Source: Candidatus Omnitrophota bacterium (GTDB taxonomy: Bacteria; Omnitrophota; Gorgyraeia; Aquiviventales; Aquiviventaceae). From it: a stretch of 40,653 nucleotides of DNA. The translations under genes and the position numbers were made by a program. The notes beneath the pieces are model-generated. The model was not told the DNA's origin. It did no database searches and saw only the letters and a program-made list of their open reading frames with translations. The stretch spans positions 1 through 40,653 of the forward strand of contig JACPAY010000017.1 in NCBI GenBank assembly GCA_016180575.1, given 5' to 3'. Below are positions 25,590-40,653 of this stretch, in pieces (within the stretch, counting starts at the first letter, position 1; each line of letters starts with the position of its first letter).

Positions 25590-25624
25590 AAAAAAACCGA
25601 GCTGCCATTCGTTCGGCAGCCCGG
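25590..25624 (-). terminator. Riboswitch-linked intrinsic terminator
   Basis: Minus strand: CCGGGCTGCC, 8-nt loop, GGCAGCTCGG, then seven T. The 5' arm is the 3' end of the c-di-GMP-I aptamer (CCGGGCTGCCG), so ligand-stabilised aptamer and terminator exclude each other. This predicts an ON switch. Confidence 0.85.
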
Positions 25625-25726
25625 CTATCCTCTCCGGTATCAGATACCAAGCCCCGCTTGGTATCTGATACCGGAAAGCACCCGTGGCTTTGCGTCCCCC
25701 GCTTACGCGGGGTTTGCCCTTCTCGG
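25614..25726 (-). promoter_or_regulatory. c-di-GMP-I (GEMM-I) riboswitch 1
   Basis: Minus strand: GGGCAAACC, a stem capped by GTAA (GNRA loop), then GGGACGCAAAGCCACGGG, a variable arm, and CCGGGCTGCCG. These are the conserved GEMM-I blocks; the middle G of GGGC (G20 in Vc2 numbering, as I recall it) is kept, which favours c-di-GMP over cGAMP. The variable arm is extended by the palindrome at 25634-25674. Confidence 0.92.
25634..25674. repeat. Perfect 18-bp-arm palindrome in riboswitch arm
   Basis: Arms CCGGTATCAGATACCAAG and CTTGGTATCTGATACCGG around a 5-nt loop. It forms the tip of the variable arm of riboswitch 1. A diverged copy lies in frame in the cupredoxin-like gene at 5915-5949. Confidence 0.9.
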
Positions 25727-25734
25727 TAAATCGA

Positions 25735-35392: not shown

Positions 35393-35424
35393 AAAAAAGC
35401 CGGACTACCCTTCGGTAGCCCGGC
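35393..35424 (-). terminator. Terminator of riboswitch 2
   Basis: Minus strand: GCCGGGCTACC, 4-nt loop, GGTAGTCCGGC, then six T. Its 5' arm is the aptamer 3' block CCGGGCTACCG, again predicting ligand-dependent antitermination. Confidence 0.88.
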
Positions 35425-35525
35425 TGTCCTTGTCAGGCCTGCTGATGGCGGCACGCTCAACCGCCATCCAGACTGAGAGGACCCGTGGCTTTGCGTCCCC
35501 AGCTCACGCTGGGTTTGCCATTTTC
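35413..35525 (-). promoter_or_regulatory. c-di-GMP-I riboswitch 2 (proximal)
   Basis: Minus strand: GGCAAACC, stem with GTGA loop, GGGGACGCAAAGCCACGGG, an arm closed by GTCCT/AGGAC with an inner GATGGCGG/CCGCCATC hairpin, then CCGGGCTACCG. Lies 42 nt before the giant gene start. Confidence 0.92.
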
Positions 35526-35573
35526 GCTATTAATACTAACTTTAAAAGAACAAATGAAGTTGCCAATAAAAAA

Positions 35574-35617
35574 AGCCGGAGACAAAAATACCGGGTGCCC
35601 TTTTCGGCAACCCGGCT
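35574..35617 (-). terminator. Terminator of riboswitch 3
   Basis: Minus strand: AGCCGGGTTGCC pairs imperfectly with GGGCACCCGG followed by TATTTTT. A longer alternative pairs AGCCGG with CCGGCT, directly followed by seven T. Either uses the aptamer 3' block. Confidence 0.7.
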
Positions 35618-35706
35618 TTCCTTCGGACTGCTGATAGCCCTCAGCTAACCAGCCCTGAAGGATCCGCGGCTTTGCGCCCCTGCCTTACGACAGGTTTACC
35701 TTTTCG
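35605..35706 (-). promoter_or_regulatory. c-di-GMP-I riboswitch 3 (distal of tandem pair)
   Basis: Minus strand: GGTAAACC, stem with GTAA loop, GGGGCGCAAAGCCGCGG, an arm closed by ATCCTTC/GAAGGA, then CCGGGTTGCCG. It departs from consensus at two places (GGTAAACC for GGCAAACC; GGGCGC for GGACGC), so affinity may differ from riboswitch 2. A 40-nt AT-rich linker separates the pair. Confidence 0.85.
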
Positions 35707-35717
35707 TTCCTGCAACA

Positions 35718-38075: not shown

Positions 38076-39230
38076 CTAGCGCTGATCGAGGGGGACGAAC
38101 TTCAAGTCGCGGGGGCCCACGTAGAGGGCGAGCGGCCGGATGAGCCGGCTGTCGGAGGCCTCCTCGATCACGTGCGCAGACCAGCCGGCCATGCGGGCGC
38201 AGGCGAACATCGTGGTGAAGAGCTCCGTCGGGATGCCGAGGTAGTGGAGGAGCGACGCGGAGTAGAAATCGACGTTGATGTAGAGCTTCTTCGCCCGCCA
38301 GACCGCCTCCTGGAGCCGCTCAGAAATTGTGAACCATTTCGGCTCTCCGGCGGCTTCGCCGAGCCGCTTGGCGATCGCCTTGAGGTGCTTCGCCCGGGGG
38401 TCCTCCCCCTTGTACACGCGGTGGCCGAAGCCCATGAACCGCTTGTGGTCGGCGAGGGTGCGCTGCACGTAGGGCTCCACCTGCTCGTCGCTGCCGATCT
38501 CGGTGAGCATCTCCATCGCCTTGCGGTTGGCCGCGCCGTGCAGCGGGCCTTTGAGCGACCCGATGGCGGCCGTGATCGCCGAGTAGTAGTCGGAGTGCGT
38601 GGAGGTCACTGTCCGCGCGGTGAACGTGGAGGCGTTGAACCCGTGGTCGGCGAGGAGGACGAAGTAGGCGTCGAGCGCCTCCACCGCCTGGCGGTTGGGC
38701 TCCCCGCCGAGCAGCATGTAGAGGAAGTTCGCCGCATGGCCCAGACCCGCCTTGGGCGGGAGGATCGGCTCACCGGCCCGCATCCGGCCGATCGCCGCCA
38801 CGATGGCCGGCGTGAGCGCGATCGTCCGAACCGCCTTGCGCCGGATGGCCTCGAGCGAGACCTCGGCCGCGTCCCCCGCGTCATCGGAGATGCCGAGGAA
38901 GGAGATCGCCGTCCGGAGAATCGCCATCGGCTCGGCGCGGCGCGGCAGCGACTGCAGCAGGGCGAGCAGCGTTGGCTCGAGCGCCGTCGCCGCCGCCAGT
39001 TGCGCGGTCCACTCGGCGAGCTGCGCGCGCGTCGGCAGCGCCCCCTGGAGGAGAAGGAAGCTCACCTCCTCATACGCGGCGCGCCCGACGAGCTCGTCGA
39101 TGTGGTAGCCCCGATAGATGAGCTGGCAGCGCTGCCCGTCGACCTCCGAGATGGACGTCTTGTCCGCCACCACGCCTTCCAGCCCTCGGCGGACCTCTGC
39201 GTGGGGCGACGCCGGCTCAATGGGATTCAT
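38076..39230 (-). CDS. gltA: Citrate synthase
   Basis: 384 residues from ATG 39230 (MNPIEPASPH), overlapping the mdh stop as ATGA; the ORF-track start at 39404 runs through mdh in another frame. It condenses oxaloacetate with acetyl-CoA. Active-site regions GPLHGAANRKAMEML and FMGFGHRVYKGEDPRAK, and the catalytic Asp in NVDFYSASLLHYLGIP, are intact. Length and N-terminus (GLEGVVADKTSISEVDG) match the short citrate synthase / 2-methylcitrate synthase group, so methylcitrate synthase is a lesser alternative; the mdh-sucCD context favours citrate synthase. Confidence 0.95.
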   Translation of the reverse strand: MNPIEPASPHAEVRRGLEGVVADKTSISEVDGQRCQLIYRGYHIDELVGRAAYEEVSFLLLQGALPTRAQLAEWTAQLAAATALEPTLLALLQSLPRRAEPMAILRTAISFLGISDDAGDAAEVSLEAIRRKAVRTIALTPAIVAAIGRMRAGEPILPPKAGLGHAANFLYMLLGGEPNRQAVEALDAYFVLLADHGFNASTFTARTVTSTHSDYYSAITAAIGSLKGPLHGAANRKAMEMLTEIGSDEQVEPYVQRTLADHKRFMGFGHRVYKGEDPRAKHLKAIAKRLGEAAGEPKWFTISERLQEAVWRAKKLYINVDFYSASLLHYLGIPTELFTTMFACARMAGWSAHVIEEASDSRLIRPLALYVGPRDLKFVPLDQR

Positions 39231-40159
39231 GGGCGCAGGCTCTTGATGCCGGCGCGGACCTGCTCGGCCGCCGCGGCCAGCGCGGTCCGCTCGTCCGGGG
39301 TCAGCGGCATCTCGACGATCTCTTCCACCCCCGAGGCGCCGAGGCGCGCCGGCACGCCGAGGCACACGTCGCGCAGGCCGTACTCGCCCTGGAGCGCCGC
39401 GCACACGGGCAGCACCGCGTGGCGGTCCTGCAGGATGGCGCCGGCCATCTCCACGATCCCGCTCGCCGGCGCGTAGTAGGCGCTGCCCTGCTTCAGCAGC
39501 GCCACGATCTCCGCGCCGCCGTCCCGCGTGCGCTGGAGCAGGCCGTCGAGCTCTCCGGGCGGCAGCAGCTCGGCGGCGGGGCGGCCGTTGACGGTGATGG
39601 ATCCCCGCAGCGGCACCATGAGGTCGCCGTGGGATCCCAGCACCATCGCCTGGACCGCCGTCGGCGGCACGCCGAGCCGCTGCGCGATGAAGGCCCGCAG
39701 GCGGGCGCTGTCCAGCACGCCGGCCATCCCCATGACCCGCTGCCGCGGGAAGCCGCTGCGCTGCAGGGCCAGCGCGACCATGATGTCGAGGGGGTTGGTC
39801 ACCACCACGATGACCGCTTCCGGGGCGAGCTGCGCGATCCGCTCGGCGATCGGGCCGACGATCCCCGCGTTGGCGGCGAGCAGGTCATCGCGGGACATCC
39901 CCGGCTTGCGGCTCATGCCCGCCGTGATGACCACGAGGCGGCTGCCCGCCAGCGCCTCGTAGCCGGTCGCGCCCTGGACGGTGGAGGCAAAGCCTTCGAT
40001 GGGCGCCGACTGGCTCAGGTCCAGCGCCTTGCCCTTTGCCAGCCCCTCGACCACGTCGATGAGCGCGATGTGGGCCAGCCCCTTGAGCGCCAAGAGATGG
40101 GCGGCGGTGGCGCCGACCTGTCCGGCGCCGACGACGGTGACGTGCGGAAGGATTACGAT
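39227..40159 (-). CDS. mdh: Malate dehydrogenase, canonical start codon missing
   Basis: The ORF track starts at TTG 40093, which would cut off the NAD-binding motif. The frame continues upstream as LPHVTVVGAGQVGATAAHLLALKG, the expected Rossmann start, but no ATG, GTG, TTG or CTG occurs before the in-frame TGA at 40187-40189. My boundary at an ATC codon (40159) is provisional. The rest is complete: RKPGMSRDDLL substrate loop with malate-type arginines, VVVTNPLDIM and the catalytic histidine in GSHGDLMVPL. It oxidises malate to oxaloacetate for citrate synthase. A hairpin element lies directly upstream, so the true start may have been lost by insertion or by a sequencing error. Confidence 0.85.
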   Translation of the reverse strand: MVILPHVTVVGAGQVGATAAHLLALKGLAHIALIDVVEGLAKGKALDLSQSAPIEGFASTVQGATGYEALAGSRLVVITAGMSRKPGMSRDDLLAANAGIVGPIAERIAQLAPEAVIVVVTNPLDIMVALALQRSGFPRQRVMGMAGVLDSARLRAFIAQRLGVPPTAVQAMVLGSHGDLMVPLRGSITVNGRPAAELLPPGELDGLLQRTRDGGAEIVALLKQGSAYYAPASGIVEMAGAILQDRHAVLPVCAALQGEYGLRDVCLGVPARLGASGVEEIVEMPLTPDERTALAAAAEQVRAGIKSLRP

Positions 40160-40167
40160 AGTCCCGG

Positions 40168-40220
40168 GACCGCGTCCATGTTTCGCTCAGCGTCTTCGAT
40201 GGCGAAAGATGGACGCGGTC
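40168..40220. repeat. 19-bp-arm hairpin between small membrane gene and mdh
   Basis: GACCGCGTCCAT-G-TTTCGC and GCGAAA-G-ATGGACGCGGTC with one G-G mismatch and a 15-nt loop. It begins 4 nt after the stop of the 92-residue gene. No T-run follows. Its distal arm contains an ATG that is out of frame with mdh. Confidence 0.85.
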
Positions 40221-40223
40221 TCC

Positions 40224-40502
40224 TCATTTGATCAATCGGATCCCGAGCCCCATGAGGCCAAGGCCCGCCGCGGTCCAGCCGATCCAGAGCGCGACGGCGA
40301 AGAGCCAGCGGAGCCCGAGCGCCATGCCGGCGAATCCGCCGACAAACCACGTGCCCCACCCGGCAAGGGCTCCGGCCGCCCGGGACGCCGTCCGACGGCA
40401 GGTCCGTCGGGCCGCCTCCACGGAGCGGCTGGCCACCGCTAGGCCCACGCCGACCGCCACCAGGCCGGTGAGAATCGTCAGGCTTCCGATGAGCCACTGC
40501 AT
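40224..40502 (-). CDS. Small membrane protein of unknown function
   Basis: 92 residues. Three hydrophobic segments: MQWLIGSLTILTGLVAVGVGLAVA, GTWFVGGFAGMALGLRWLFAVA and LWIGWTAAGLGLMGLGIRL, with an Arg-rich cytoplasmic loop (EAARRTCRRTASR) between the first two. I do not recognise the family. It is the first gene of the mdh-gltA-sucCD transcript, has its own promoter and an apparent leader of only a few nt. Confidence 0.65.
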   Translation of the reverse strand: MQWLIGSLTILTGLVAVGVGLAVASRSVEAARRTCRRTASRAAGALAGWGTWFVGGFAGMALGLRWLFAVALWIGWTAAGLGLMGLGIRLIK

Positions 40503-40556: not shown

Positions 40557-40653
40557 GTCGTGTCTCAATTTGGCGGGTGACGCAGAGCCGGGGACCCCGT
40601 CGCCTGCCCGCAGGCGAAGGCCGAGGACAGCCGACGGGGTGGCGGCGCGGCAG
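40557..40653 (+). repeat. Dispersed hairpin repeat, copy 3 (cut by window end)
   Basis: Begins GTCGTGTCTCAATTTGGCGGG, matching the right end of copy 2 in inverse. The internal stem is CCCCGTCG and CGACGGGG, a compensatory change relative to copy 2. Confidence 0.88.

Follow-up and report, generated by a model that had tools for sequence, protein, structure and literature searches.

A dispersed palindromic element that probably supplies stop and start codons between genes occupies the start site of mdh in an uncultured Omnitrophota bacterium

The window analysed in this work is a stretch of 40,653 nucleotides (contig JACPAY010000017.1, assembly GCA_016180575.1) from an uncultured member of the Omnitrophota. 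Near its end the minus strand carries a malate dehydrogenase gene (mdh) preceded by a 92-amino-acid membrane-protein-like gene; at least 12 family relatives also have this gene ahead of mdh. A small palindromic element lies at the junction of the two genes. The features are listed from high to low coordinates.

40224-40502, minus: upstream 92-aa membrane-protein-like gene (ORF list), ending at the TGA of the element
40156-40230, minus: full copy of the dispersed element, CAAATGAGGAG-hairpin-CCCGGGACTATCG, of the long type with its ATG to CCCGGG distance of 59 nt (search and alignment)
40224-40227, minus: ATGA, in which the TGA of the upstream gene (40224-40226) overlaps the ATG of the element (40225-40227); same layout in 24/39 copies
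40220-40225, minus: GAGGAG, Shine-Dalgarno-like, conserved in the element (copy alignment), putative ribosome-binding site
40153-40227, minus: 24-codon ORF within the element, MRRPRPSFAIEDAERNMDAVPGLS, ending TCG TAA with the stop at 40153-40155 (ORF reading)
40202-40220, minus: 5' arm of the hairpin (inverted repeat, stem covariation)
40168-40186, minus: 3' arm of the hairpin (inverted repeat, copy alignment), containing an out-of-frame ATG (40177-40179) that is missing in most copies
40162-40168, minus: heptamer C_CCG_GGA, from which a -1 slip would lead from the element ORF into the mdh frame (sequence; function speculative)
40154-40156, minus: GTA codon aligned to the Met start of relatives, where GTG would be expected from the sister copy L012 (alignment)
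40151-40153, minus: ATC, alternative weak start candidate overlapping the stop of the small ORF (TAATC) (sequence)
39227-40156, minus: mdh, malate dehydrogenase (homology, profile match)

Elsewhere on the minus strand there are three c-di-GMP-I riboswitches (35410-35528, 35603-35710 and 25611-25727); two of these lie near each other, immediately downstream of sucD.

Read on the minus strand in the mdh frame, the start region is TGA(40189-40187) GCG AAA CAT GGA CGC GGT CCC GGG ACT ATC GTA ATC CTT CCG CAC GTC. As the first-pass annotation had stated, the stretch from the in-frame stop (40187-40189) to the Rossmann motif lacks ATG, GTG and TTG in this frame. The first in-frame start codon of table 11, the TTG at 40093, falls inside the domain and was rejected as the start, since it would remove the Rossmann motif. 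The ATG in the stem (40179-40177), which had also been pointed out, was rejected because it is out of frame and missing in most copies of the element, of which it is not a conserved feature. In the family nearly all mdh genes begin with ATG-x-CTN-CCN, thus the Met codon of the relatives aligns with the GTA of the window (40156-40154), and the G of this GTA is the last base of the element. In one relative (G018, locus L063), whose genome gave no hairpin match, the ATG of mdh is also missing at the usual place, and a TTG is found a few codons upstream.

The hairpin, placed at the start of mdh by the first-pass annotation, has 19-nt arms (40168-40186 and 40202-40220), which are 95% complementary and separated by a loop of 15 nt. 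Its folding energy is -40.2 kcal/mol (z -3.6), and none of 200 shuffled sequences was equally stable. A search with Rfam covariance models at gathering threshold gave no match at the element site. A further inverted repeat with 16-nt arms and a 15-nt loop lies at 40594-40640, near the end of the contig.

The suggestion to look for the hairpin elsewhere in the genome proved fruitful. With positions 40140-40240 of the window as query, blast yielded 21 matches in the 1.31-Mb MAG to which the window belongs; one of these was the window palindrome itself on the other strand, leaving 20 copies. The single congener compared (Candidatus Omnitrophota nzgw327) had 25 matches, and among the 40 genomes searched only one other gave a match, which was weak and partial. 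When 84,980 species genomes (GTDB) were scanned for the pattern of the element, 18 stretches were found, all of them in the MAG of Candidatus Omnitrophota nzgw327; the set scanned may omit records of the window's own genome. The element is a mobile-looking small DNA sequence with more than 20 copies, essentially restricted in these searches to a single genus of uncultured Omnitrophota. In the literature searched we did not find such an element in Omnitrophota.

Searching with the tag AATGAGGAG revealed further copies and shortened derivatives (e.g. L179, L181, L183, L188 and L190). In some derivatives (L183, L188, L189 and L191) AAATGAGGAG was kept and most of the stem was gone; CCCGGGAC was also retained in L183, L188 and L189. 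L188 and L191 look like one site in two species. All nine AATGAGGAG matches in genome G015 were on the + strand of the contigs and none on the reverse strand. At three loci (L055, L016 and L048) a second partial copy or a repeated 3' end directly follows a copy, suggesting repeated insertion or tandem duplication.

Thirty-nine full copies could be aligned across approximately 74 nt. In order, they show AAATGAGGAG, the first arm of a stem with 15-16 pairs, a loop that varies, the second arm and CCCGGGACTATCG; one mismatch in the stem is kept in most of them. Among 597 pair cells of the stem 99.8% were standard pairs (85.8% in shuffles), 63 cells were changed on both sides (19.4 in shuffles), and the covariation value was 0.315, compared with 0.088 after shuffling. 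The stem is therefore kept by compensatory change, and the hairpin, a member of a dispersed family with a covarying stem, is far beyond chance. Where only one side had changed, the gene-sense strand carried G-U pairs (13 GU, 2 UG) and no A-C. This bias hints that the sense strand is the folding strand; the copies are related, hence they do not count as independent evidence.

The 5' end of the element consists of an ATGA stop/start overlap with the Shine-Dalgarno-like GAGGAG right behind the stop. In 24 of the 39 full copies the called upstream gene ended exactly at the TGA of CAAATGAGG. As a baseline, 116 of the 3717 TGAs in the same loci (3.1%, element TGAs included) ended called genes. In six copies (L009, L047, L020, L050, L060 and L044) the upstream gene enters the element in another phase, so that 24 of 30 copies share one phase of three (P = 2e-7); after collapsing apparently orthologous sites of the two genomes the figure was about 21 of 25 (P = 3e-7). 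Gene ends were taken from a home-made, simple codon-score caller, backed by homology only at the loci of the empty-site comparison. In both species there is a copy lying in frame inside one called gene (L020 and L050), where the element may be translated internally.

Based on the distance between the ATG and CCCGGG, the copies fall in two length types, short (56-57 nt) and long (58-60 nt). Short copies are open throughout, so the downstream gene would be translated from the element ATG with about 23 extra residues. In nine copies (L015, L016, L018, L021, L023, L051b, L054, L056 and L057) the downstream gene offers no start before its conserved part other than the element ATG, with which it is in frame; among these genes are pgk (L023), a livM-like gene (L054) and era (L056). 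L016 is exceptional in that a TTG within the element is a possible start as well as the element ATG. L018 and L051b seem to be one site shared by the two species, which leaves eight independent sites. The profile match starts at residue 27 of the fused Era and at residues 24-29 of the fused PGK. Long copies have the small ORF in a different frame and end it at their 3' edge. At L012 the junction CTATCG/TGATCC creates a GTG start overlapping the TGA of the small ORF; the other long copies with a downstream gene on the same strand are followed by a normal start shortly downstream.

Some of these genes also have empty sites. The pgk gene of the congener (G001, L139) reads CTC/GTGA/AACAAAC, with a GTG start overlapping the upstream stop, and era in G000 (L143) reads CACAA/ATGA/GC, with the ATG start in an ATGA overlap. 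The gene at L012, which is empty in G001, likewise starts at an ATG in an ATGA overlap, and the empty site L140 reads CGC/ATGA/TCCC. Unlike the GTGA of pgk and the ATGA of L140 and era, the empty site L144 has a TGA plus a spacer. The dispersal and the pairs of filled and empty sites suggest that the element is, or was, mobile. There was no clear target duplication in the empty and filled pairs of the congeners, and a parent transposon was not found.

It is interesting to compare the element with known small repeats. MIRUs (mycobacterial interspersed repetitive units) reportedly insert at DTGA coupling sites (Supply et al., 1997). They are intergenic, oriented with the genes, carry small ORFs overlapping the neighbouring genes and have no dyad symmetry (PMC4473831). 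The Omnitrophota element is similarly small, dispersed, intergenic and oriented with its neighbours, and the ends of its small ORF overlap the adjoining ORFs: the overlap is found at the 5' end in 24 of 39 copies and at the 3' end in L012 (GTGA), and short copies continue in frame. Unlike MIRUs, it forms a strong hairpin with a covarying stem of 16 pairs, and its short copies fuse with the downstream gene rather than ending before it. GTAG REPs, palindromes mobilised by RAYTs (REP-associated tyrosine transposases), form hairpins, and ORFs next to them often take their stop codon from the end of the REP (PMC3733652). Our element shares with such palindromes a conserved tag left unpaired at one end, here GAGGAG. 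Whereas REPs are 20-40 bp long, with stems of 5-13 bp and a GTAG or CGTC tag, this element has about 75 nt, no GTAG and GAGGAG as the tag, and it appears to supply a start codon. Rickettsia palindromic elements (RPEs) are palindromes translated in frame within conserved proteins (PMC2229807, PMC10969869). The short copies would likewise be translated as part of proteins, although RPEs are longer (approximately 105-150 bp) and many of them lie within ORFs, whereas the Omnitrophota element is located mainly between two genes, with a stop and a start of its own. By analogy, it seems to work like a MIRU at the 5' junction, like a REP in its symmetry and like an RPE in the translation of the short copies. 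By the features tested it is neither a MIRU nor a REP; the likeness to RPEs is one of description.

A RAYT was considered as the mobiliser. The window's own genome encodes a single RAYT (L041, 2787-3539; NF047646, 92.8 bits), without a copy of the element alongside, and there was no Y1 match in G001 (73% completeness). This candidate was rejected, as the only RAYT of the genome is flanked by a different hairpin and the congener has no Y1 match. The hairpins around the RAYT centre on AAGTACCSGGTACTT and belong to a different palindrome family.

The reading that we favour, with a probability of roughly two thirds, is that a dispersed palindromic element has been inserted between co-directional genes and supplies stop and start codons there, and that a long copy of it occupies the native Met site of mdh. 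Insertion would often take place at stop/start overlaps (ATGA or GTGA); NTGA is the commonest spacing motif of closely spaced genes and in the range of the most efficient coupling (PMC12548453). The 5' end, CAAATGAGGAG, would provide a TGA for the upstream gene and an overlapping ATG with GAGGAG as a putative Shine-Dalgarno sequence. Short copies, with 57 nt from their ATG to CCCGGG, are open to the 3' end and would extend the downstream protein; behind long copies (59 nt), which are in a different frame, the downstream gene would restart at or just past the 3' edge. In one long copy the restart codon would be a GTG made up of the last G of the element and a TG of the target.

In the window the 3' edge of the element falls exactly on the aligned native Met codon of mdh, and the family relatives that were compared lack the element there. 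The proposal that an inserted element had destroyed the mdh start is therefore supported in large part, but the element normally gives a replacement start, either its own ATG in the ATGA overlap or the G/TG at its 3' edge. Thus the window copy is exceptional, and it is one base away from GTG. We read the junction (CTATCG/TAATCC) as the arrangement of L012 differing by a single base, A for G; the small ORF still has a stop (TAA for TGA), but the start is gone and GTA stands as the restart codon at the native Met position. A GTG ancestor is suggested here by the single sister copy. The junction was compared with family relatives rather than with a congener mdh locus, and in these relatives 6-49 nt separate the upstream stop from the mdh start, so that an ATGA or GTGA target at mdh is only hypothetical, and some intergenic sequence must also have been lost.

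If base 40154 is real, translation of mdh must begin, presumably weakly, at one of the two codons GTA and ATC, probably by coupling to the stop of the 24-codon ORF, or take some rarer route such as a -1 slip at C_CCG_GGA. The most specific form of our proposal is tentative: a portable cassette of stop, Shine-Dalgarno sequence and start at coupled junctions, which fuses an N-terminal peptide to downstream proteins including Era and PGK, with a near-cognate GTA or ATC start at mdh.

It is also possible, if rather unlikely, that base 40154 (or 40151) is a consensus error of the MAG, and that the true start of mdh is a normal GTG (or ATG) right at the 3' edge of the element. Changing a single base would create GTG at the exact Met position, as in L012, and among the same-strand copies with a clear downstream gene the window copy alone lacks a standard start. 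Single-base errors are, however, uncommon in assembled contigs, and mdh otherwise shows nothing broken. A recent loss of the start, turning mdh into a pseudogene, would explain the missing standard start, but it is improbable: the ORF is complete and scores 380.8 bits with the bacterial malate dehydrogenase profile TIGR01763 (cut-off 351.9), it was the sole match in a scan of its own genome, where a second mdh was not found, and its pairwise dN/dS, about 0.25 against two relatives, is consistent with a working gene, although this value is blind to a very recent, traceless loss.

A further reading, which we consider very doubtful, has ribosomes start at the element ATG and shift by -1 at C_CCG_GGA (40168-40162), so that Mdh is made as a fusion protein. 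The heptamer matches X_XXY_YYZ, a slip there brings ribosomes of the small ORF into frame with mdh, and short copies yield the same kind of fusion without a slip, yet CCCGGGA is kept in nearly all copies regardless of frame, re-pairing from CCG to CCC is poor, and the other long copies on the same strand have normal starts. That the hairpin, a strong stem 3' of a gene, is merely the intrinsic terminator of that gene can practically be dismissed, as the stem is followed by CCCGGGACTATCG and not by a T-run, and copies lie between genes of the same direction and carry stop and start codons in their conserved flanks.

Gene callers can truncate genes of this kind: our simple caller set the start of pgk inside the domain and that of mdh at the TTG at 40093. 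Genes such as era and pgk, which occur naturally both with and without the element, make translational coupling, and the tolerance of core proteins to N-terminal extension, testable. The results suggest how a mobile sequence may survive inside operons: by carrying its own translation punctuation (stop, ribosome-binding site and start), it would re-create what its insertion breaks.
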